Assembly (NCBI GenBank): GCA_029213065.1
Contig: JARGPH010000016.1
Span: 1 to 51,102, forward strand
Source: Verrucomicrobiales bacterium
Lineage (GTDB): Bacteria > Verrucomicrobiota > Verrucomicrobiia > Verrucomicrobiales > DEV007
Direction of reading: 5' to 3'
Length of the DNA stretch: 51,102 bases
This document shows, one piece after another, positions 186-26,179 of this stretch. Under the pieces are notes generated by a model that did no database searches, was not told where the DNA came from, and was given only the letters and a program-made list of their open reading frames with translations. Each line of letters begins with the position of its first letter. The stretch's first letter is position 1. The position numbers and the translations under genes are program-made.

Positions 186-1403
186 TCACTCCGCGATCAA
201 CCGATCAATATCATCCAAATCCACCTTCAGCACCTCCATGGTTTGCTTCGCTCCCGAGAAGGCGATCAACAAGTACCCGTCCTCCTCGATCATGTGCGGG
301 TAGTCGATATGACGCTCACCCACGAGATAAAACAAATGCGTGTAAACAAGCCCATCCTTACTGATCGCTAATGTGAGCGGACTGCGTCTTTTGGGGTTAG
401 CGTTAGAGACGAAGGCGTGATACCCACGTGAAGTCCTCAGAGCAAAAAACTTACTCGTCGCGTCGGGGAAGTTGGTTTGCACAATCGGACTCCAGCTCTC
501 ACCGCTGTCCGTCGAAAAGGTCCGCAGGATACGCTTCGATCCCGAGTTGTCGCGGATCAGCCCGACGATATTTTTCCCGTCCGGAAGCGTATACCAATAG
601 GGCTCTTCGGGGCGTCCCTTCCCATCGTAGCTCGCCATCGGGTGGACCTTCCACTGATCAAATCCCTCGACACCTCCGACCATCACCGAAACCTGGCGCT
701 TGTGATCACGTCGCGTCATCATCCACTGGCCGTTGGGAAGTTTCTTCGGAGGAAAGTTGTTCATCGCATCATCGAGAACCGTCCCGTGGGCCTCCCACTT
801 ATTCGCTTCTTTGTTCCAGCGGAACGCCTCGAGGCTGAGCCCCTCACCCGGATACCCCGGCGCATTGAAATGACTCGAAAGCGCGAGCAGCTCACCATCG
901 CGCACCCAGAGACCCCGCGCGATCCAACCGAACCCGTCGACACGCGGTGGACCGGTAAGGTCAGCGGGCTCGCTCCAGTTCACCCCGTCGACGCTCGTCG
1001 CATAGGAATTCCGCGTTCCGGGCAGATCGTGATGAGGAACCACATTCCGATGCTTTTCTGCATCGACCCCCTGGATCGGTCCACCGGGGCCATCACTCCA
1101 CATCGCCCAGTAGCGACCATCGTAGTAGGCGAGGTAGGCGTGCTGATGAACCCGGGTCCCCGCCTTGTCGCGAACATCGCTCAGGATCGCGTGCTGTGAG
1201 GGCAAGTGGGTGAGCTTGCTGAAATCAATCTTCTTCGGGTCGGTCCCCGTCGTTGTCTTCAAATTGAGCATCAACCTGCTTTCCTGCCCCGTCACAGGAT
1301 GAGGAACGGGATAATCGGATTCCGCAGCACGGGTCATGGCGGTAGTTCCGGCGAGGAGAAACGCACAAAGAATGAGGGGGCGGGATGGGGGTGTCTTTTT
1401 CAC
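186..1403 (-). CDS. Sialidase-like (BNR/Asp-box) secreted protein
   Basis: A 405-residue protein from a GTG start at 1403. That start gives a good signal peptide (KKTPPSRP, then hydrophobic LILCAFLLAGTTAM, cleavage near ATRAA/ES) and places it 4 bases after the stop of the upstream gene. Earlier in-frame starts run into that gene and add non-signal-like sequence. Two Asp-box-like motifs are visible, SVDGVNWSE and STDSGESWSP, as in six-bladed sialidase beta-propellers. Family knowledge suggests an exo-acting glycosidase or a related propeller enzyme, exported to periplasm or surface. It is the third gene of a symporter, FAD oxidoreductase, sialidase-like operon, so it may release or process the sugar that is imported. 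True sialidase activity is not proven; many environmental proteins of this fold have other or unknown substrates. Confidence 0.75.
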   Translation of the reverse strand: MKKTPPSRPLILCAFLLAGTTAMTRAAESDYPVPHPVTGQESRLMLNLKTTTGTDPKKIDFSKLTHLPSQHAILSDVRDKAGTRVHQHAYLAYYDGRYWAMWSDGPGGPIQGVDAEKHRNVVPHHDLPGTRNSYATSVDGVNWSEPADLTGPPRVDGFGWIARGLWVRDGELLALSSHFNAPGYPGEGLSLEAFRWNKEANKWEAHGTVLDDAMNNFPPKKLPNGQWMMTRRDHKRQVSVMVGGVEGFDQWKVHPMASYDGKGRPEEPYWYTLPDGKNIVGLIRDNSGSKRILRTFSTDSGESWSPIVQTNFPDATSKFFALRTSRGYHAFVSNANPKRRSPLTLAISKDGLVYTHLFYLVGERHIDYPHMIEEDGYLLIAFSGAKQTMEVLKVDLDDIDRLIAE

Positions 1404-1407
1404 GGTA

Positions 1408-2970
1408 TCAGTGGTTGGAATGTTGAAGGACCTGCCCTTCACGGGCAAGAATCGATTGGAGTTCAGAAATGGGTATGTCACGCGGAGGAAGCTCATGCTT
1501 CACCGCGAGATGAGCGGCGATCCCGGCAGCCTGACCAAGACACATCCAGGTCGGCTCCATCCGGATCGATGAAAAGGCCACGTGGGTCGTCGAAGCGGCG
1601 ACCGGGACGATCAAACCGTCGATCACTTTCGGAATCATAATCCGATAGGGAATTTCGTAAGGCCGCGTGATCGAGTCGAGCATTCCCAGATAGCCTTCGA
1701 GAACGATGTCATCACCGGGCTGCTTTTTCCGGCAGGGAAAGCTGTCGATCGGGAACTCCCCAATCGCGATCGTGTCGGGATGCCTTCCGATCTCAGTCCC
1801 GCCCGACTCAGTGATATCGTGTTCGGTCAGGGTGTATTCGCCAACGAGCCGTCGCGCTTCGCGCACGTAGAGCTGAAACGGAAAATGATCATTGTCGGTA
1901 AATTCGTCGAGCGGGAGATGATACTGATTCGCAATCGCCCGATGCGCCTCGGGGATCCCACTGTCGTTCTGAAGGAAGTAAAGCAGTCCGAGAACGAGAT
2001 TTCGAATCCGCCTGAAAATGGCCTGCCGGGTCGCGTCGTCTCCTTCGACATAGCCGACGTTCTCTTCACCGAAAGGAAATCCTAGCGGACGCGGGTTGAT
2101 GTTCACATCGGTTTTCCCATTCGGCAGCGTCGTTACCGAAAAGGCTCTCACCATCGTGTCGAAGTGGGCCGGCTCGTAGCCGCGGTCCGGCTTCCAGTTT
2201 TTCGGACCGCTCAAACGCCCCGCCGCAAGATCGTCGAAGTAGCCGGTGTATTCGCTTCGATCGTAATCCTCCGGCTCGGAAGTGAGCGGCACCGAATTCT
2301 CCGCCAGGGTGGAGAGGCAGAGGCGATAGGTGTAGGCCGGCAATCGGTCATCCGCCCTGCCGGTCGTCCCGGGGAGAAACTTCGCTTCCTGATAATCGAA
2401 GTAAATCTCCCCGGCGTGCGGTTCACCAAATGCCTCCCGGGATTCGCGCCCGAGCCGAAACTCCGCCCCCGCCGCCGCGAGCAAATCCCCTTCGTAGGTC
2501 CCGTCGATAAAAACGCTTCCTGCAATCCATCGCTCACGATCACTTGCCCGATCAATAATCGCCACTGCGGCGACCGATTCATTCTCCACCCTCGCCTCGC
2601 TGATGCGGTGATTCGTCAGAATCGTGATCCCCTCACACTCACCTAACATTTCGCCGAAAATGCGCTCCGCCACAGAGGGTTCAAAATAGTACCCATTCTT
2701 ACACAACTCGAAGTCCTTCGACCCCTCACCGAAGGTATCGAGGTAATACTGCCTCATCCGCTTCGTGAACTCCTCAAAGAGCCCGCCGATCAAATGCGGT
2801 TTTTCGACATCACTTTTGCCGAGCCCGCTCGACGACATCCCTCCGAGATGATCATGATACTCGACGAGCAAGACAGAACTCCCGAGACGGGCCGCCGCGA
2901 TTGCCGCCGCAAGCCCGCCCGGGGTTCCCCCCATAACAACAACATCAAATCTCTCGGTCTCCTCACTCAT
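1408..2970 (-). CDS. FAD-dependent oxidoreductase (FAD_oxidored type)
   Basis: A 520-residue protein. The ATG at 2970 overlaps the symporter stop as ATGA (2967-2970), and the dinucleotide-binding motif VVMGGTPGGLAAAIAAARLG begins about 8 residues in, so the longer upstream reading is not used. The N-terminal Rossmann loop is a GGTPGG variant of GxGxxG, followed by the acidic E (LLVEYHDHLGG) that holds the FAD ribose. The C-terminal part has VPVAASTTHVAFSSIRMEP and GQAAGIAAHLA, typical of the FAD-dependent oxidoreductase family common in Verrucomicrobiota and Planctomycetota. There is no signal peptide, so it is probably cytoplasmic. It may oxidise or reduce a sugar brought in by the adjacent symporter. 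The substrate cannot be read from the sequence. Confidence 0.85.
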   Translation of the reverse strand: MSEETERFDVVVMGGTPGGLAAAIAAARLGSSVLLVEYHDHLGGMSSSGLGKSDVEKPHLIGGLFEEFTKRMRQYYLDTFGEGSKDFELCKNGYYFEPSVAERIFGEMLGECEGITILTNHRISEARVENESVAAVAIIDRASDRERWIAGSVFIDGTYEGDLLAAAGAEFRLGRESREAFGEPHAGEIYFDYQEAKFLPGTTGRADDRLPAYTYRLCLSTLAENSVPLTSEPEDYDRSEYTGYFDDLAAGRLSGPKNWKPDRGYEPAHFDTMVRAFSVTTLPNGKTDVNINPRPLGFPFGEENVGYVEGDDATRQAIFRRIRNLVLGLLYFLQNDSGIPEAHRAIANQYHLPLDEFTDNDHFPFQLYVREARRLVGEYTLTEHDITESGGTEIGRHPDTIAIGEFPIDSFPCRKKQPGDDIVLEGYLGMLDSITRPYEIPYRIMIPKVIDGLIVPVAASTTHVAFSSIRMEPTWMCLGQAAGIAAHLAVKHELPPRDIPISELQSILAREGQVLQHSNH

Positions 2971-13793: not shown

Positions 13794-15182
13794 TTAATCC
13801 TCATCCGCCCCGCTCTCGCGGTCGAGAACGACACGAAAGCCGAGGATATCCAAGCGGTCATAGCTCTTAATCCAGCGCCGACCGGCCGATAGAATGTGGT
13901 TGCCATTGTTCGTTACATACGAGCCGCCCCGCACCGCTTTCTCATCGAGCATGTCGGCGTCCCAGTGACTCTCAGTCCACTCCCAGAGGTTGCCGCCGAG
14001 ATCTTTAATTCCCCAGTGACTGAGCGGAAACGATCCCACCGGTGCGGCTTTGCTATAGGCATCGGGCAGGAAGGGCGCCGCTCTTCTATCGTCATTCTCG
14101 GGACCACTGTAGTTACCTAGGACGGTCGCAGGCGGCCAGTCGATGCCCCAGGGATAGACGTCGCGAAGGGCATTGTGTTTTGACTTTGGCGGGGCATTCG
14201 CGTTCTCAAGTTGACCGATACCGATGGCGCAGCTCCACTCATGATCCGTCGGAAGGCGATAGCGGTCGCCGGGGCCGATCAAGCCTGCCTCCCGCTCCTT
14301 CAGGGTGAGCCATTCGCAGTAGGCTTTTGCCTCGTGCCAGTCGACTCCCGAGACAGGGTGGTTATCGAGGGAACTGTCATCAGGCGATTTCCAGCGAATC
14401 CCGGAAACCTCTCTGGAAAACGGGAGAAAGTCTTTAATTCTCGTCTCATGAACGCTGAAGAGAAGCGAACCCACCTCCCGGGTTCCTTCGAAAACAGGCA
14501 CGGGAACGAAAGACATTTCGAGGCTGTTCTTGAACTCAACCTTGAAATCTTTGGCGAAAATATTGTGACTCTGATAGAACTCCTGAGCAGCCGCGGGCTT
14601 CGAAACCGACTCAATTGCCGTCGCGATAACTCCTTCGGCGGGATCTGCCACTGCAGATGTTTTCTCACTTCCAAACCAGACAGCACCGCCACAAACCAGG
14701 GCGAGAACAGCAGAAGCCAGAGCGATCTTCTTCCCGGGAACCCGGGAAGCGGGTTTTGATTTTTTAAGCTCAGTAAGGAGTTCTGCTGACTCCGCGCTGG
14801 CAGGGTCGATCTCGAGAGATTTCCGTAAGAGTTCCTCAGCACGGACACGGGAAGTTTTATTCCCTGACTCTTTCCAGAGCCCCAGATGCGCTTTTCCACA
14901 ATCACGAAGCACACCGGAACGGTAGGGAGCCAGAGCAACGGCCTGCTCGAGCTCGACGATGGCCTCGTCATAGTTTTCGAAACTGAGAAAATTGCGACCT
15001 TTCTGAAGATGTTCTTCAAGCTTTTCGCAGACACGCTTCCAGCCTGCCTCGCTGAGTCCGGCCTTTCGAGCCATTTTCTCAAGAGTCTCCTCCGTTAACT
15101 GATCCCCCGGTTCAGCGAGTTGTATATCGAGGACCTTTCGCAGGAAATTGGTGAACTCGTCTGGATCAGGGTCATAGGCCAT
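13794..15182 (-). CDS. TPR-like membrane protein with FGE-like (SUMF1-fold) outer domain
   Basis: A 462-residue protein. Residues 1-150 are a helical TPR-like module and about 151-171 a membrane helix (KKIALASAVLALVCGGAVWF), both gaplessly aligned with the gene at 5466-6284. From about 215 on it is an FGE-sulfatase domain: NHPVSGVDWHEAKAYCEWLT, YRLPTDHEWSCAIG, VYPWGIDWPP, APVGSFPLSHWGIKDLGGNL, then WEWTESHWD and VRGGSYVTNN ending LGFRVV. The last block has no cysteines where true formylglycine-generating enzymes carry their copper-binding pair, so it is unlikely to activate sulfatases; related domains act as ligand or C-type-lectin-like modules. Topology: N-terminus inside, FGE-like domain outside. 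Function unknown. Confidence 0.85.
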   Translation of the reverse strand: MAYDPDPDEFTNFLRKVLDIQLAEPGDQLTEETLEKMARKAGLSEAGWKRVCEKLEEHLQKGRNFLSFENYDEAIVELEQAVALAPYRSGVLRDCGKAHLGLWKESGNKTSRVRAEELLRKSLEIDPASAESAELLTELKKSKPASRVPGKKIALASAVLALVCGGAVWFGSEKTSAVADPAEGVIATAIESVSKPAAAQEFYQSHNIFAKDFKVEFKNSLEMSFVPVPVFEGTREVGSLLFSVHETRIKDFLPFSREVSGIRWKSPDDSSLDNHPVSGVDWHEAKAYCEWLTLKEREAGLIGPGDRYRLPTDHEWSCAIGIGQLENANAPPKSKHNALRDVYPWGIDWPPATVLGNYSGPENDDRRAAPFLPDAYSKAAPVGSFPLSHWGIKDLGGNLWEWTESHWDADMLDEKAVRGGSYVTNNGNHILSAGRRWIKSYDRLDILGFRVVLDRESGADED

Positions 15183-18702: not shown

Positions 18703-20088
18703 ATGATTTCAGCCCTGACCACCTTCCTGTCGCAAGCATTTCTCTTCGCATTGTCGCTTCTCATGGGAGTGGTTTGCTATATGGGGACGAAGAAAATCGC
18801 GACGAAAAAGCAGCTTGATGTTGAGTTGCCGCTTATGAGTGGAAGCGAAGTGATCCACGATTCCATGGTGATCAACGCGAGCGCGCACCTCCTTGCCAAA
18901 ACCCATCAACCGGTCGACATCGCAGGTGACGTTCTCGGAAATTTCTACGTGCTGCAAAAGAACGGCGATATCGTCAGGATCAGCCCCTCCGAAGCGGGCA
19001 TGACCGTGTCAACGGGCTACGCGAAGCTCGCCGCAGCGAACACCGCGACCGATATCGGCTTTTCAGCGATTTCGCTCCACCCTCAGTTCCACGTCAAAAA
19101 TTCGCCCGGTTACGGCAAATTCTACGTCGTCGCAGCCGAAACAGCTGGAAGCGGCACCGCTGACTTCACCCCTGAATTCGGGAACGACGGCGAAGATCAC
19201 CAGGATGTGATTTACGAATATCAGACAATCGATCCCCTCCTTGGCAACTTCAAAGGAGCCAGTCGCGAAATCGTTCGGTTCAGCCAGCCCGGAGCGGAGA
19301 ACAACGTCGAAAGCATCGCATTCGACCATCTCGGCCAGCTTTACATCGGCGTCGGAGACGGTTCCAGCGACGAAGTGACACACACGAGTCCTTCAAAAAA
19401 TGCCTCGTCACTGACTTCCGCCTACGGAAAGGTGCTCTGCATCAACCCTCTCGGGGACAACTCAGCCAACGGACAGTATGGAATCCCTGAAACAAACCCT
19501 TTCTGCCGTGTCTCCGACTCAATTCCTGAGCTCTGGGCTTTCGGCCTTCGTAATCCCCACAGCCTTCACTTCGACCCTTTCCAGGGTTGCCTTAACATTG
19601 GTGACACAGGCATCGACGGAACCGAGGAGATCAACGTGAGCCGTCTCGGCGGCGAGCATTTCGGATGGGATCTCTCCGAGACGAGCGCCCTCTTCGACCG
19701 CAGCCTGCGTGCGCAGTTGAAGGAGATCGTCACGAATCCGGCGATCACAACGAAAACAGGACGCGCCAACGGCAACGTAATCTACCGCGGTGAAAACTTC
19801 CCCGCTCTCGCCGGCCGCATCATCATGACGAATGAGAGCGGCCAGCTCCTCTGCGGTAATTCAAAAACCGGCATGAAGTATGACTCCTCCGTTTCTCAGG
19901 TAAAAGTGCCGGGTCTCGGCGATCGTCCTCTTTCCGGGTTGAAGACAACCCTTGATGGCGAGCTCATCGTCCTTTGTGAAGACGGGAGCATCTTTGAGAT
20001 CCGCAAAGCAGCCTCTCTCGGAACTGAGAAGCGCGCCAACCGCCAGCTTTTCTGCCAGCTCGACGAAACGATTCCCGCGAAAGGCTAG
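18703..20088 (+). CDS. Sorbosone/glucose dehydrogenase-like beta-propeller (GSDH)
   Basis: A 461-residue protein with an N-terminal membrane or signal segment (FLSQAFLFALSLLMGVVCYM) and a six-bladed propeller. Blade motifs typical of PQQ-dependent soluble glucose and sorbosone dehydrogenases include PVDIAGDVLGNFYVLQKNGD, GFSAISLHPQF, VESIAFDHLGQLYIGVGDGS, LWAFGLRNPHSLHFDPFQGC and INVSRLGGEHFGWD. It probably oxidises sugars or alcohols outside the cytoplasm using PQQ, but key residues cannot be confirmed by eye and related propellers are non-enzymatic. Its stop overlaps the asnS stop by 4 bases (20085-20088), the two genes converging. The upstream 139 bases are AT-rich and shared with the divergent PhyH gene. 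Confidence 0.85.
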   Translation: MISALTTFLSQAFLFALSLLMGVVCYMGTKKIATKKQLDVELPLMSGSEVIHDSMVINASAHLLAKTHQPVDIAGDVLGNFYVLQKNGDIVRISPSEAGMTVSTGYAKLAAANTATDIGFSAISLHPQFHVKNSPGYGKFYVVAAETAGSGTADFTPEFGNDGEDHQDVIYEYQTIDPLLGNFKGASREIVRFSQPGAENNVESIAFDHLGQLYIGVGDGSSDEVTHTSPSKNASSLTSAYGKVLCINPLGDNSANGQYGIPETNPFCRVSDSIPELWAFGLRNPHSLHFDPFQGCLNIGDTGIDGTEEINVSRLGGEHFGWDLSETSALFDRSLRAQLKEIVTNPAITTKTGRANGNVIYRGENFPALAGRIIMTNESGQLLCGNSKTGMKYDSSVSQVKVPGLGDRPLSGLKTTLDGELIVLCEDGSIFEIRKAASLGTEKRANRQLFCQLDETIPAKG

Positions 20089-21452
20089 AACTCCGCCGAT
20101 CCGGGCGTCCTCGGAAACGGGATCACATCGCGAATGTTTGCGACACCGGTCACGAACATCAAGAGGCGCTCAAACCCGAGCCCGAATCCCGCATGAGGAA
20201 CGGTGCCGTAGCGCCGCAGATCGACATACCAGGAATAAGTTTCCTCATCGAGATCGTGCTCTTTAAAATTGGCCTCCAGGATATCAAGTCGCTCCTCACG
20301 CTGGCTTCCACCGACAATCTCGCCGATTCCGGGAACGAGCAGGTCCATCGCCGCGACCGTCTTCCCATCGTCGTTCTTGCGCATGTAAAAGGGCTTGATC
20401 GCTTTCGGGTAATTGTAAACCGTGGTCGGACATTTGAAATGCTCCTCGGTGAGGTAACGCTCGTGCTCGGACTGGAGGTTGTGGCCGTACTCGACGGGAT
20501 ACTCGAACTTCTTCCCACTTCCCTGCAGCAGTTCGACGGCCTCCGTATAGGTGATCCGCTCAAAACTCCGGTCGCGCACTGACTGAAGCCTTTCAAGAAG
20601 TCCCTTATCGACGAACTGATTGAAGAAGGCGAGGTCATCGGCACAGGTTTCGAGAGCATCACTGACCAGATACTTGATCATTTCCTCTGCGAGATTCATA
20701 TCGCCTTCGAGATCACAGAACGCGATCTCCGGCTCCACCATCCAGAATTCGGAAGCATGCCGGGAAGTGTGGGAGTTCTCAGCGCGAAACGTCGGCCCGA
20801 AGGTGTAAATATTCGAGAGAGCACAGGCAAACGTCTCGCCTTCCAACTGGCCGCTCACGGTGAGATAGGCCGGCTTGTGGAAAAACTCTTCCTCTCCGGT
20901 TTTGATCTCCTCCCCATCCATCGTCACGACGCGGAACATCTCCCCGGCGCCTTCGCAGTCGGATGAAGTGATCACCGGCGTATGAACATAATAAAAGCCG
21001 CGCTCCTGAAAAAACTGGTGAATCGCATACGCCATGCGACTGCGAACGCGAAAAACCGCCCCGAAAAGATTGGACCGCGGACGGAGGTGGGCGATCGAGC
21101 GCATGAACTCCATCGAATGACCTTTCTTCTGCAGAGGGTAGTCCTCCTCCGCAGCGCCCAACATCTCAACCGAAGTCGCCTGGATTTCCCAGAGCTGACC
21201 TTTCCCCTGAGAGCGAACCACCTTCCCTGTCAGCGTCAGCGAGGCGCCCGTCTTCAACGAAACGACATTCTCCTCGTAGCCGGCAAGGGTCGCATCGGCG
21301 ATGACCTGAATATTGGCAAGACAGCTCCCGTCATTCACTTCGATAAAGGAGAATGCTTTGGAGTCCCGCTTCGTGCGAACCCAGCCGTTCACGGTGACGT
21401 CTCCGGGTTCAGATTCGCTTTTGAGAATATCAACGATTCGGGAATTGGGCAT
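20085..21452 (-). CDS. asnS: Asparagine-tRNA ligase
   Basis: A 455-residue class IIb aminoacyl-tRNA synthetase from the ATG at 21452 (MPNSRIVDIL). An N-terminal OB-fold anticodon-binding domain (DVTVNGWVRTKRDSKAFSFI, EVNDGSCLANIQVI) is followed by the catalytic core. Motif 2 is FGPTFRAENSHTSRHASEFW and motif 3 is GFGLGFERLLMFVTGVANIR, then DVIPFPRTPGSAEF at the C-terminus, characteristic of AsnRS rather than AspRS. It charges tRNA(Asn) with asparagine, implying the direct route for Asn-tRNA in this organism. It lies 59 bases after the stop of the kinase gene 21512-24229 on the same strand and may be read from that transcript. Confidence 0.96.
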   Translation of the reverse strand: MPNSRIVDILKSESEPGDVTVNGWVRTKRDSKAFSFIEVNDGSCLANIQVIADATLAGYEENVVSLKTGASLTLTGKVVRSQGKGQLWEIQATSVEMLGAAEEDYPLQKKGHSMEFMRSIAHLRPRSNLFGAVFRVRSRMAYAIHQFFQERGFYYVHTPVITSSDCEGAGEMFRVVTMDGEEIKTGEEEFFHKPAYLTVSGQLEGETFACALSNIYTFGPTFRAENSHTSRHASEFWMVEPEIAFCDLEGDMNLAEEMIKYLVSDALETCADDLAFFNQFVDKGLLERLQSVRDRSFERITYTEAVELLQGSGKKFEYPVEYGHNLQSEHERYLTEEHFKCPTTVYNYPKAIKPFYMRKNDDGKTVAAMDLLVPGIGEIVGGSQREERLDILEANFKEHDLDEETYSWYVDLRRYGTVPHAGFGLGFERLLMFVTGVANIRDVIPFPRTPGSAEF

Positions 21453-21511
21453 GCCACAGTATCGAAATCGCTGCCTTAATTTCAACCGGATTTAAAGCGG
21501 TTCTGAAATAA

Positions 21512-24229
21512 CTATTCCTCCGGTCGCCCTGTGTCCTCAAGCACGTAGCGGAACCCGTAATAGGATTCGCTGACCTCGGCCGGAACGACATTCCGGTAAC
21601 TCGACTCGAGCATGGTCTTGTCGTAGGTGTTCCAACCACCGCCGCGCAAAACCCGGTAATTACTCCCCTCGCCATTATAGGGATCCGTGACCCATTCCCA
21701 GACGTTGCCGCCGATATCGTAGAGCCCGCTTTCAGTGGGAGGAAACGAGCCCACCGGGGAAGTCCGGTCGTAGCGATCATTGTATCCTTCGATGACGGCG
21801 CCTCCGAACAGATTCGCCGCCGATTGGTCGGAGTAGTTACCAGCCCCCTCCGGAGGAGGCCACTCCGTGCCCCACGGATAACCGGGAACCGCTTGAAAGC
21901 TGCGCTCTTCGGGCGTCGTTCCCTTTTCTCCGGTTATTCCTGCGAAACGACTCCATTCCGTATCCGTCGGAATACGATAGCGCTGCCACGGGCGAATCAG
22001 ATTCAAGGCCCTCTCCTTTCGCGTAAGCCATTCGCAGAATTCCACCGCCCCCGCGAGATCCACCCCCGCCACAGGATGCTCCATGGTACGCCCCACGATG
22101 GGAACAAAAGGGATCCCGTTTTCACCGTCCGACCGGAACTCACGAAAATCACTCAACCGCGTCTCAAAAGCGGCAACCATGAGCCCTCCCACCGGAACCA
22201 GCTCCATATTCTGGCTGTTTCTCCACGGTTGCCCGTAGATAACCGAGGCATCACGGATCAATTCCACCGTCCTCGCGATTGGCTCCTGTACGTCCACCTC
22301 GCCCGTTACCGTTGCCACCTCGTAACCGGGTAGAAATACATCAACCGCGTACTGCCCCCGTCTCATTTCATTGTAAACCAGCGGAGTCACACCGAGATGT
22401 TTTTCACCGAGGAAAACATCAGCGCCTTCAGGAGTTGAATTTAAAATAAGCACGCCGGCATCATTGTCGAGATAGCAGCGAAAAGAGTGGTCCAACTCGC
22501 TTTCACTTTTCACGGGACGATAATACCAGCCCTCTTTCAGGTAGCCGGCTTGACGGTCTTTCTCAGTGACCCACTCGCAAAATGCCTGACGAATCAGATA
22601 ATCCGATACGAAAGCAATCCCGTTCGATGCCGTTCGGGGATACTCTTTCCCGACTTCCCCTGCGAATTGATCAAACATCGCTACCGATACCAGTTCCGTC
22701 GATAGGTAATGCCCTCTCTCCCCCTCGGGAAGAAACGGAATCCCCAGTGAATTGACCCATGGCTCTCCCGGGACAGGGCTGCGATCCTGAACCAGCGTCG
22801 AAAGAATCATCTGAAACCCCTCCTTCACATCCCAGGTATCTTTCCAGTCCAGGTAGCCTTCTTTTTTCACAACGACCTCCACTGGTCCCACATCCAGATC
22901 GAAGAGCCGCGTCTCCGTTCTCCCGAAATCTTTGCCGTTGATGAAAACGCTGGCATTGCTGGGCTGGCTCATGATTTTCACCTGCCCCTGCGCAACCTCT
23001 TCCTCAACCGGAGTAGCTACCACAACCGCTTCATCCTCTTCCTTAGCTCCTTTTCCGCCCTTGTCGTCCTTACCACCCTTCCCGTTCTCCGTCTCCGGAT
23101 CAGCAGGCCGGTCCGTAATAATAATCCCCGACCCCAGATCCGTTTCGTCCGGAAGCTCAACGAATTCAGGATCACCGGATTCCTCGCCGGCATCATTGAC
23201 CACCACTTCCTCGATAAGACGCGGATCGTCCTCCCTCTCGTCCCCGGACTTATTAAAAACAAAACTCCCGCCATTCGCAGCGAGGAATGAAGCATTATCC
23301 TTCCACAGCCAGTAACCGCCGTATCCAATCCCCGCAAAAAGGGTGAGCAATACAATCGCGAGAACCAATTTCTTTCCCGCACTCGATTTGCTTCGCTTCG
23401 TTTCGCCCGTCTCAAGCCCGGTCACTGCAGCGAGGGCTTTTGCAAAAACATGCGCCGATTCATATCGCTTCCGGGGATCCGGAGAACCCGCGCGGCAAAT
23501 CACTCCGTTAAGTAACCGCCACTCGTCACGATTCACCGTTGGAGGAATCTCGAGATTGGTCGGCAATTCGGGAAAATCGAGCCGATCCTTTCCCGTGTGC
23601 ATCTCGTAGAGCACCATCGCGAGCGAATAGAGATCCGCCGAGCTCGTCCCCGGCCCCTCCGGAGGCACATAACCCTCCGTCCCGACGTAGGTACGCTGTC
23701 CGCTGCTGGCGACCAGTCCCACGTCAGCGAGCTTGGGCTTCCCTTTGACAAAAATGATGTTCGACGGTTTGACATCCCGGTGGGTAAGCCCCGCCTGATG
23801 CAAATGCCCGAGAGCGCCCGCAAGAGAAACCCCGTGATTCACACATTCGGAAACGGATCGTCCGGGATGTTTCCGCAAATCAGAGGACAGGGTTCGCGGC
23901 TTGTAGCTTTCCACGTCAATTTCCTCGCCGAAACCATCTTCGTCGTCGGCGAGCTCCATCACGTAGTAATAGAAGCCGGCTTCATCATCCCGGCCGACGT
24001 GCAGCACATCCACCAGCCCCGGATGATCCTGAGACACTTTCTCGTATTTCTGAATCCCTTCGAATTCCCGCTCAAAGGTGCGCTCGAACTCAAAATCCTC
24101 ACGCCTCACCACTTTCACGGCACGATACATACCGGTCACGGTGCGCGACAAATAGACTTCACCATAGGCACCGCCACCGATGCGTCCGATGATTTCAAAG
24201 TTAGGGATGGAGGGCAGCGCGTCTATAAT
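21512..24229 (-). CDS. Ser/Thr protein kinase with PEGA and FGE-like domains; non-standard start
   Basis: The first standard start is TTG at 24151 (879 residues), but that would remove strand beta-1 and the glycine loop. In frame upstream the codons read SIPNFEIIGRIGGGAYGEVY, with the stop TAA at 24242-24244. I place the start at ATT 24229 (905 residues); CTG at 24217 is an alternative, as is a base error. Kinase domain 1-285: loop IGGGAYGEV, lysine in YRAVKVV (K39), THRDVKPSN (D152), and DVG in place of DFG (LADVGLV). A membrane helix lies at about 286-309. Outside follow a PEGA domain (about 415-475), a partial FGE-like domain (485-590), a second PEGA (STPEGADVFLGEKHLGVTP) and a full FGE-like domain (665-900) lacking the cysteine pair. 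Probably a surface-sensing kinase. The upstream gene ends 47 bases earlier. Confidence 0.88.
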   Translation of the reverse strand: MIDALPSIPNFEIIGRIGGGAYGEVYLSRTVTGMYRAVKVVRREDFEFERTFEREFEGIQKYEKVSQDHPGLVDVLHVGRDDEAGFYYYVMELADDEDGFGEEIDVESYKPRTLSSDLRKHPGRSVSECVNHGVSLAGALGHLHQAGLTHRDVKPSNIIFVKGKPKLADVGLVASSGQRTYVGTEGYVPPEGPGTSSADLYSLAMVLYEMHTGKDRLDFPELPTNLEIPPTVNRDEWRLLNGVICRAGSPDPRKRYESAHVFAKALAAVTGLETGETKRSKSSAGKKLVLAIVLLTLFAGIGYGGYWLWKDNASFLAANGGSFVFNKSGDEREDDPRLIEEVVVNDAGEESGDPEFVELPDETDLGSGIIITDRPADPETENGKGGKDDKGGKGAKEEDEAVVVATPVEEEVAQGQVKIMSQPSNASVFINGKDFGRTETRLFDLDVGPVEVVVKKEGYLDWKDTWDVKEGFQMILSTLVQDRSPVPGEPWVNSLGIPFLPEGERGHYLSTELVSVAMFDQFAGEVGKEYPRTASNGIAFVSDYLIRQAFCEWVTEKDRQAGYLKEGWYYRPVKSESELDHSFRCYLDNDAGVLILNSTPEGADVFLGEKHLGVTPLVYNEMRRGQYAVDVFLPGYEVATVTGEVDVQEPIARTVELIRDASVIYGQPWRNSQNMELVPVGGLMVAAFETRLSDFREFRSDGENGIPFVPIVGRTMEHPVAGVDLAGAVEFCEWLTRKERALNLIRPWQRYRIPTDTEWSRFAGITGEKGTTPEERSFQAVPGYPWGTEWPPPEGAGNYSDQSAANLFGGAVIEGYNDRYDRTSPVGSFPPTESGLYDIGGNVWEWVTDPYNGEGSNYRVLRGGGWNTYDKTMLESSYRNVVPAEVSESYYGFRYVLEDTGRPEE

Positions 24230-24276
24230 GGGAACCCGAATTTACTCGAACACCGCACTTTTTTCCACCGATCCTT

Positions 24277-25974
24277 TTAGCTCTCTCCGAGAACCCGATC
24301 CTGAGCCCTTTGCTCCGGCAATTCCCGATGCAGGCAAATCTCGAAAATCGTATCTGACGGAATTTCCTTCCCTTCCCATCCCACCGCTTGAAGCGATTCG
24401 GCGGAATTCCCCCCGGGAGAGACCCGGTGACCGAATCCCCAGCCGCCGTAGGTAAAGCGCGTCTCAACCTCGTTGGGACAGGCCTCCGAAAAGACGCCCA
24501 GATGTCGAGCACCGTAGAAAAGCTCATTGGAGGCGTTGAACCCGATCGAAGTTGAACGGTCGAGGTCGTCGAGATCATCTCCATCCAAGCGAACGAAAAC
24601 ACGCTCCCCCGTATCGAGCCGCTCCATTGAAATCCAACCGTTCCAGTCCGGTATGGACTCAAGAGACCTCGCCCGGTGGTTCGTTCCCCGATAAATGGTC
24701 TTCCCCCAGATTCCCACGTCATTGGATCGAAAAAGAACGAGAACCTCAGGTTCTTCATCCTCATCTTTCTGCTCGTTCTCCTCAGCCTCAACCGGCGGAG
24801 CTACCTCCGACTTCTCTTTGGTCAGATCCGTAAACCCACTGACACGGGCTGTTTTTTTGAGAGGCTTTTGAATGGGAGCGGTCTCTTCGGGCACCGCAAA
24901 ATCGATTGCCTCGACCTCATCCGGAGCCCTGAACCCCTCGTCAGGAGACAAATTCAAAAAAGGATTCTCCCAGGATTGCCCTGCAGCCCCCAACAATCCC
25001 ACCGCCGGCTTGAATCCCCCGGCGTCGGAAGAAGGCACCTCTTCAGTTTCCGGCGGGCCGGCCAATGGCTTAACGTCGTCTGAAAGATCTTCAACGATCA
25101 CTTCATCCAATCCATCTTCAGGTTTCTCCGTGATCGCAGTGTCCAACTCGTCCAGCGACTTTTGAATGCACTGCCCCAGAGCGCGGCTCTGATCGGAAGC
25201 AAGCGAGCTGCTTACCGATCCATCGATCAACAATATCGAAGAGATCGATTCGAAGACCGGCTCCCTCCCTGCCTTGAGCGAGTCTCCGATATGACGATCG
25301 GTCTCATTGGAGGCTACCTCCCAGCCGGGTGACAAAGTGCCCGCAAGAGTTTTTGCCTCATTGAGGGCGTCGCGTGACCGCATCACGGATTCAGAAGTAA
25401 AATCTTTTCCGGAAAGAACGTCATCCTCAAGCGGGAGGACGAGAGCACTGACCTCCTTCAAGATCTCGCGGTTCTTCACCAAATTCACGACCTGCTTGTC
25501 AGCCATCCCGAGACAGGCCTCAATCGTTTCCGGCCTCGGGGCATCTTTCTCATCCCGGAGAGCGGTGAGTTGCTCACTCACCATTTTCAGCCGGGAAAAA
25601 TCAGTCCCCACCGTCTGCCTCGCGTCGCGGACCGCTTCTGTCAGAGCAAAAAGACTCGCCGCATAGCCGACCGAAGGATCCTGAGGTTTCTTCTGCAAAA
25701 ATTCCGAAAACCGCGCCACCCGCTCACGCGACTCGCGTTGTTGTCGTTCGGTGAGGATTAATTTCTCGTGTCTCCAGCGCAGCGCTGCATCCATCAAAGG
25801 GTCGTTGTCGCTCTCCGCAACCTCTCTCCTTTCCTCCGCGCTGGGACGCCCGATAAGCCAGCCGAAAACGAGCCCTCCGATGCCGGCAAAAACCACGGCA
25901 AGGGCGATCCAGGTTGACCCTGACTCAAGTCCACGAATCCACCACTCACTTAAAGCGGCAGCGCAAAAGTTCAT
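24277..25974 (-). CDS. Large membrane-anchored protein of unknown function
   Basis: A 565-residue protein from the ATG at 25974 (NFCAAALSEWWIRGLES); the longer reading from 26061 adds 29 residues before a better start. One membrane helix at about 20-42 (TWIALAVVFAGIGGLVFGWL) is followed by helical, coiled-coil-like sequence (RRWHEKLI-like, TERQQRESRERVARFSEFLQ), an acidic Pro/Glu-rich linker at 300-440, and a C-terminal domain of about 140 residues (FRSNDVGIWGKTIYRGTNHR, WISMERLDTGERVFVRLDGD, FGHRVSPGGNSAESL). No known family is recognised. It lies 47 bases upstream of the kinase gene and probably forms an operon with it, so it may be its partner or substrate. Confidence 0.75.
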   Translation of the reverse strand: MNFCAAALSEWWIRGLESGSTWIALAVVFAGIGGLVFGWLIGRPSAEERREVAESDNDPLMDAALRWRHEKLILTERQQRESRERVARFSEFLQKKPQDPSVGYAASLFALTEAVRDARQTVGTDFSRLKMVSEQLTALRDEKDAPRPETIEACLGMADKQVVNLVKNREILKEVSALVLPLEDDVLSGKDFTSESVMRSRDALNEAKTLAGTLSPGWEVASNETDRHIGDSLKAGREPVFESISSILLIDGSVSSSLASDQSRALGQCIQKSLDELDTAITEKPEDGLDEVIVEDLSDDVKPLAGPPETEEVPSSDAGGFKPAVGLLGAAGQSWENPFLNLSPDEGFRAPDEVEAIDFAVPEETAPIQKPLKKTARVSGFTDLTKEKSEVAPPVEAEENEQKDEDEEPEVLVLFRSNDVGIWGKTIYRGTNHRARSLESIPDWNGWISMERLDTGERVFVRLDGDDLDDLDRSTSIGFNASNELFYGARHLGVFSEACPNEVETRFTYGGWGFGHRVSPGGNSAESLQAVGWEGKEIPSDTIFEICLHRELPEQRAQDRVLGES

Positions 25975-26179
25975 CTCAGTTCCCCACAATGGGAATAGTT
26001 GGTCAAGGCAGACTGGCATTTCGTGGCAGGATTTTCCAACGCCTACAACATCATTAGACACACTGGCGTAACAGCCAAGCGTTTATTTTCGTTGGACGAT
26101 TCATTTTAGAAGCTATTCGCACATGATGGAGTGCGTTTTCAGGATTGTCAGCGAAATGCTTTTTACCTAAATTGTGAAC

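Follow-up and report, generated by a model that had tools for sequence, protein, structure and literature searches.

A probable leaderless AUC-type start of a protein kinase gene in one clade of Verrucomicrobiales

A 51,102-nucleotide stretch of DNA from a Verrucomicrobiales bacterium (GenBank assembly GCA_029213065.1, contig JARGPH010000016.1, positions 1 to 51,102; hereafter the window) encodes on its minus strand a serine/threonine protein kinase whose open reading frame (ORF) offers no canonical start codon ahead of its ATP-binding loop. Comparison with orthologues shows that the kinase frame of one clade has an AUH codon (AUC, AUU or AUA; ATH in DNA) at a matching place, that coding-type variation runs onward from this codon, and that a promoter-like element stands at a fixed distance before it. 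The best explanation of this pattern, and on such comparative grounds a probable one, is a leaderless AUC-type start abutting a sigma70-type promoter.

The kinase frame comprises 909 codons plus stop (minus strand, 24241 to 21512) and is bounded upstream by an in-frame TAA (24244-24242). From that TAA to the TTG at 24151-24149, the first canonical start, there is no in-frame ATG, GTG or TTG, yet the glycine-rich loop IGGGAYGEVY (24152-24181) is encoded there: the codons that follow the TAA are ATT CGG GTT CCC ATT ATA GAC GCG CTG CCC TCC ATC, then CCT AAC TTT GAA ATC ATC GGA CGC ATC, then GGT GGC GGT GCC TAT GGT GAA GTC TAT TTG. A sequence-only reading of this DNA had drawn attention to the gap and had expected a gene finder to begin at the TTG and cut off the loop; both statements hold, as a mechanical ORF caller opens an 879-amino-acid ORF at the TTG, past the loop. 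The missing canonical start in the window is real. The kinase is also unusual within its genome. When 0.97 Mb of the window's genome was paired with 0.40 Mb from two relatives, in stretches picked because they hold the kinase, the alignment began, in 6 of 63 orthologue-like pairs, at least 3 codons ahead of the first canonical one on both sides; the kinase, with 21 and 25 such codons, was the only pair above 20 in both, the smaller value in the other five being 8 to 10 (one short frame had 118 on one side).

The sequence-only reading had advised comparing the N-termini of orthologues, which proved informative: most same-genus orthologues likewise do not have a good canonical start, and the loop, whose true absence from orthologues would have counted against that reading, is present in those compared. 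We aligned 42 orthologous 5' ends, hand-picked from homologue searches as clade members and representing the genera coded g1, g6, g10, g12, g13 and g28 together with L140, which has no genus code. The set omits L021 and L022 (loop absent from the contig), G003 and G015 (5' end unusable, or unmatched at 1e-90) and family members of other arrangement, which mostly start at TTG or ATG (for example L042, L045, L047, L048, L050, L051, L053, L060, L069 and L200-L206). An ATH codon occupies the matching place in 35 of the 42, from g1, g6, g10, g12 and L140 (ATC in 32, ATT in two, ATA in one), and precedes the I/V-P/S-x-F/Y codon by nine codons in 31 sequences, by ten in two and by 14 in two; ATG occupies the matching codon itself in none of the 42. 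From the upstream stop to the loop, 23 of the 35 have no canonical in-frame codon, and in 16 an in-frame stop lies 8 or fewer codons upstream and no canonical start intervenes. A Shine-Dalgarno-like tetramer is found within 20 nt upstream in only 2 of the 35, so that a Shine-Dalgarno-led start of the kind seen in infC, the gene of initiation factor 3 (IF3), is not what these sequences present.

The 35 were selected for ATH, and the codon counts are thus no independent test; the distance to the promoter-like boxes, the pattern of variation by codon position and the identity of residue 2 are. Pairwise comparison of the 31 gap-free sequences gives differences at codon positions 1, 2 and 3 of 0.65, 0.66 and 0.63 over the 27 nt upstream, 0.45, 0.42 and 0.61 over codons 2 to 9, and 0.16, 0.06 and 0.53 over codons 10 to 19, with 0, 0 and 0.185 at the ATH codon, where the zeros are a consequence of the selection. 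By this comparison coding-type variation starts at the ATH codon. Residue 2 is Ala in 19, Pro in eight, Glu in four, Ser in two, Gln in one and Gly in one, and the 30 of 35 with Ala, Pro, Ser or Gly make up a composition that suits removal of an initiator methionine. ATC is commoner at the ATH codon than among the ordinary isoleucine codons downstream in the same frames (ATC:ATT:ATA = 533:285:50), a comparison to be read with caution given the kinship of the sequences.

The promoter-like element, which the sequence-only reading overlooked together with the clade-wide ATC, consists in the window of a -35-like hexamer TGGAAA (24262-24267, minus strand) aligned with a conserved box of the orthologues, a 17-nt spacer that includes the trinucleotide TCG (24247-24249), and a -10-like hexamer TAAATT (24239-24244), the first three bases of which are the in-frame stop and which corresponds to TANNNT in orthologues. 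In 31 of the 35 ATH orthologues TANNNT ends 5 nt (18 sequences), 6 nt (12) or 7 nt (one) before the ATH codon, within the 5-8 nt of leaderless genes, whereas at any other gap from 0 to 59 nt it occurs zero to three times each. The TGGAAA-like box lies 17 nt above the -10-like box, its G at -21 from that box in 31 of 31, and the T, C and G of the trinucleotide recur in 25, 29 and 29 of 31 orthologues. Transcription usually starts about 6 nt from the -10 box, and given the observed gap the first transcribed base is therefore predicted to be the A of ATC. In L016, outside the 35, a TAGATT is followed after 6 nt by AC GTG; the GTG lies 2 nt inside the likewise predicted 5' end.

Several other signals were considered at this place. 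The element, written as TGGAAN-N11..13-TCGNNTANNNT, has one site in 0.97 Mb of the genome, the kinase, and a regulon sharing it was rejected. A promoter of the extracytoplasmic function (ECF) type was dropped, the 13 nt from GGAAA to CG being too short against the usual spacing of such promoters. A structured RNA was rejected as well, since the window gave no Rfam match at gathering scores and the first 50 nt have a mean fold z of 0.18.

We infer from these observations the transcription start, initiation at AUH, formylmethionine at residue 1, low output and control by IF3. In this Verrucomicrobiales clade the kinase gene would be transcribed from its own sigma70-type promoter, so near that transcription would begin on the start codon's own first base; the mRNA would be leaderless and open with 5'-AUC, rarely AUU or AUA; and ribosomes would be loaded at the 5' terminus, where the ordinary initiator tRNA with anticodon CAU would pair with AUC and bring in formylmethionine despite the third-base mismatch. 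Synthesis from an AUH start would be weak and, as for infC, exposed to IF3, and output of the kinase would rise when IF3 is scarce. Such low, IF3-dependent output is expected because IF3 discriminates against AUH codons, which passages in PMC4611024 and PMC5472188 place among its targets.

A number of observations weigh against this explanation. Seven of the 42 sequences were not counted as ATH: besides the window and its sister genome, L016 has AAC GTG, L030 an ATG four codons later, L036 a GTG three codons later, L035 an ATC followed by an N run of uncertain length, and L199 an ATG one codon ahead of the usual position, immediately behind the stop of an upstream frame. Some canonical in-frame codon is nearby in 12 of the 35 ATH orthologues: a TTG overlapping the -10-like box in five, a GTG just before the ATC in L039, a codon further upstream in four, and, after the ATC, a GTG in L018 and an ATG in L197. 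No TANNNT ends 4-7 nt before the codon in four of the 35 (L020, L193 and L194 of g6, L198 of g10), a consensus promoter scan of window positions 24100-24500 found none, and the ATH label changes seven times on the kinase tree (19.4 times in shuffles), well-supported branches forcing at least four changes. Published work points the same way: passages in PMC4611024 state that leaderless mRNA in Escherichia coli needs AUG and that IF3 antagonises leaderless initiation, and one in PMC4633059 states that in mycobacteria a 5'-end ATG or GTG is necessary and sufficient, with ATC as a putative incompetent codon; the 35 have AUC, AUU or AUA in place of the AUG or GUG of such genes. Given these reports, either the rule fails in this clade, or initiation is purposely very weak, or the mRNA is not leaderless. 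Only tentatively, with somewhat less than even confidence, do we suggest that a free-living clade of at least four genera has kept a leaderless gene opening with 5'-AUC, that weak, IF3-sensitive initiation may itself be selected and that AUG or GUG is not required; the L199 ATG and the additional label changes make this less probable.

The window's own species departs from the common arrangement. Its promoter-like boxes are intact and the codons directly after them are unlike those of other orthologues, the distance from the -10-like box being 9 nt to the ATT at 24229-24227, the first AUH after that box, and 12 nt to the ATA at 24226-24224. The closest relative, the sister genome G022, is 83% identical across residues 1-909; the TAA and the upstream stretch recur in it, and ahead of its loop neither ATG nor GTG occurs. 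ATA 24226 is AUH in both genomes (ATC in the sister), whereas in the sister ATT 24229 is GTT and CTG 24217-24215 is TTG. It appears from this comparison that spacing has drifted in the window's species, the first codons having shifted while the boxes were kept. The sequence-only reading had placed the start at ATT 24229 or CTG 24217, and was right about its non-canonical nature, whereas the comparison does not support its choice of codons in detail. Most likely the start is ATA 24226 or ATT 24229, with CTG 24217 less likely, and in our judgement ATA ranks before ATT and ATT before CTG; an ATC (24208-24206) is a further non-canonical candidate.

That the window's species and its sister have lost the leaderless AUH and now start at the CTG or TTG at 24217 is unlikely as an account of this two-species branch, and it is compatible with the leaderless AUC-type start elsewhere. 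The TTG of the sister and the loss of AUH spacing in both genomes argue for it, against which no Shine-Dalgarno sequence is evident before the codon, CTG starts are rare, and the proposal says nothing on the 35 ATH relatives. PMC4117421 reports, in the part concerned, CTG starts at 0.7% in Caulobacter.

It is also quite unlikely that AUH is the start on a longer mRNA, produced by upstream read-through or another promoter and translated by scanning or re-initiation without a Shine-Dalgarno sequence. The same-strand upstream gene ends 35 nt before the kinase frame, and the four copies with no TANNNT at the right gap would fit; the orthologues have kept the -10- and -35-like boxes as well as their spacing, however, while the 27 nt upstream of the ATH codon differ equally at every codon position, and only 2 of 35 have a Shine-Dalgarno-like tetramer. 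A canonical start out of frame or overlapping the -10-like box, with a frameshift or an upstream transcript, is highly improbable. The five TTG codons that overlap that box, the GTG just before one ATC and the out-of-frame ATG codons close upstream in L006 and L024 lend it something, but the 23 orthologues devoid of a canonical in-frame codon do not fit it, variation upstream is not of coding type, and out-of-frame ATG codons, the only codon scanned for between 7 nt before ATH and the loop, are few and not at one place. Translation from the TTG at 24151 or later, yielding a loopless kinase, is what mechanical ORF calling produces, and we give it almost no credence: variation in the loop and in the codons ahead of it falls mainly on third positions, so that this stretch appears to be translated. 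A sequencing or assembly error, which the sequence-only reading had entertained as a wrong base and for which the 80-contig assembly gives an opening, is very unlikely and need not be invoked, as the sister record (L005) contradicts it with the same upstream stretch and canonical starts are missing in orthologues from many separate assemblies.

In a kinase-domain tree of 60 rows, which adds 11 short rows (including six ATH rows, L035 and L199) to a smaller tree, exactly the 42 form one clade with support 100/100, and 35 of them are ATH; in the smaller tree the clade has 34 rows, 29 of them ATH, and five label changes. Because seven changes are required on the larger tree, ATH appears to have been gained and lost repeatedly, by one gain with several losses or by a few gains, and with L199 placed weakly beside the g6 rows (93/54), g6 may have acquired ATH jointly with the rest or separately. 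Several kinases from beyond the clade lie downstream of a gene with sigma-70 region 2 and overlap it, with an in-frame TTG within the overlap (Pfam 1.8e-8 and 1.9e-9 in the two overlapping genes tested), which suggests an older sigma factor-kinase pair. It is plausible that the kinase gene left such an operon and acquired a promoter of its own that abuts an AUH codon. In two loci of other genera, L148 (2256-2972) and L154 (2313-2981), the gene that overlaps the kinase start has an ECF-like sigma-70 region 2.

The wider genome was surveyed for leaderless genes with 713 ad hoc gene calls over the 0.97 Mb (contigs C1, C2, C8, C16 and C21). In 28 genes a TANNNT precedes the first in-frame ATG by 6 nt, against a background of about 7-8; it does so by 7 nt in 18 genes and by 8 nt in 17, most other gaps giving 2-14, and a few percent of genes in this lineage may thus be leaderless. 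Where a -10-like box is accompanied by a -35-like box, the next codon is ATG 29 times (5.8 expected), GTG nine times (3.4), ATC ten times (6.4; one place is counted twice and one lies within the kinase), CTT nine times (5.0) and TAT four times (1.9). ATG and GTG stand out and ATC hardly does, so that a general leaderless habit of ATC in this genome was rejected and leaderless use of AUC looks specific to the kinase gene. Two other minus-strand frames, on C2 (offset 240337) and C21 (offset 337818), have TANNNT 6 nt before an ATC, their first canonical codons lying 11 and 21 codons further on.

The infC gene of the same genome (contig C16, about 1335-1535, minus strand) also has no canonical N-terminal codon, presenting ATC behind AGGAGG, and its codons ATC GCT AAG resemble the ATC GCC AAG of some kinase orthologues. 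An altered initiator tRNA with anticodon GAU was rejected, since the single initiator-type tRNA site found in the genome carries CAU and none has another first anticodon base, the search pattern having been open there. ARAGORN reported no tRNA on L273, the contig with the initiator site; that the gene is cut by the contig end is a guess. The anticodon stem of initiator tRNA is usually GGG/CCC; this one (C31:15522-15563) has AGG/CCT pairs, an arrangement present in 13 of 18 genomes searched, this one included, every one in which the pattern matched. A run of about 3 kb on contig C4 (131661-134694) gives five weak tRNA matches, scoring 29.9 to 47.9 bits, possibly in a mobile element.

Known systems resemble the kinase in part. 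According to PMC5472188, in the passages concerned, infC starts with ATT in E. coli and ATC in Streptomyces; infC thus has the kind of AUH start proposed for the kinase, but here it has AGGAGG before its start, whereas the kinase is predicted to be leaderless and its control by IF3 is hypothetical. The same source describes sigR of Streptomyces, which is IF3-repressed and starts with GTC (GTC in 32 of 34 species, GTT in two): like the kinase it is a regulatory gene with a conserved non-canonical start misplaced by annotation, and unlike the kinase it has an extensive ribosome-binding site (AGGAGGTG) and the codon GUC. For Deinococcus-Thermus, PMC12340547 describes leaderless genes whose -10 motif lies about 6-7 bp ahead of the ORF; they share TANNNT directly before the start codon, but neither ATC nor ATT occurs in the main text of that paper, in contrast to the AUC, AUU and AUA of the kinase. 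Mycobacterial leaderless genes have the 5'-terminal start codon predicted for the kinase and differ in reportedly requiring ATG or GTG, ATC being the putative incompetent codon (PMC4633059, in part). Animal mitochondrial mRNAs are mostly leaderless (a passage in PMC4611024), with start codons that include ATT, ATA and ATC (a mitogenome abstract); these belong to an organelle that has a genetic code and an initiation apparatus of its own, and the likeness is one of form only.

The product (21512-24241 with stop) combines a Pkinase domain (residues 16-219; Pfam 2.8e-23, 83.1 bits against a cut-off of 31.7), two PEGA stretches (1.7e-22) and a C-terminal FGE-sulfatase-like domain (residues 720-900; FGE-sulfatase 4.2e-23). 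It is filed as a Hanks-type kinase because of the Pkinase domain score; the equivalog cut-off of the PASTA kinase family PknB/Stk1 (NF033483) was missed (79.6 against 450 bits), the match covering the kinase domain alone. The translation contains IGGGAYGEVY, RAVKVV, HRDVKPSN and DVG, the first three of which we take to be the glycine loop, AVK lysine and HRD loop motifs. The sequence-only reading correctly observed DVG in place of DFG, the D and G being retained, but it is no anomaly: D-V/I/M-G occurs in 72 of 72 parsed homologue rows (duplicates included) and DFG never, so that DVG appears usual for this kinase family. The middle residue of DFG varies among kinases. Database records place the homologues in Verrucomicrobiales and other Verrucomicrobia. 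A second stretch of the window (13818-14477, minus strand), in a 466-codon frame, is 38% identical to the FGE-sulfatase-like C-terminus of the kinase.

The kinase gene lies between an upstream gene with no assigned function (24277-26061, minus strand; no Pfam match) and a downstream gene for a class II aminoacyl-tRNA synthetase (20085-21485, minus strand; tRNA-synt_2 (D, K and N), 8.6e-71), which we take to be most likely asparaginyl, asnS. Frames similar to the upstream gene precede the kinase in several orthologous loci, two such frames of relatives likewise giving no Pfam match, and the synthetase C-terminus recurs downstream in several; the whole arrangement is repeated in several of the 20 orthologous loci listed. 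The synthetase probably starts at ATG 21452-21450 (MPNSRIVDIL...), and not at TTG 21485, on the basis of relatives' N-termini.

The interpretation of the sequence-only reading is partly supported overall. ORF callers limited to ATG, GTG and TTG can strip the ATP-binding loop from such kinases, as happens in the window. Searches of an open-access library turned up no account of bacterial leaderless AUC starts; bacteria are known to use AUH starts and, separately, leaderless mRNAs, and reporter work, in the passages cited above, describes the two as incompatible. AUC is one base change from AUG. If the proposal is true, bacterial leaderless initiation would not need AUG or GUG, and this natural, clade-wide case would provide a direct test of the ribosome's needs at the 5' end and of whether IF3 sets the level of a signalling kinase.

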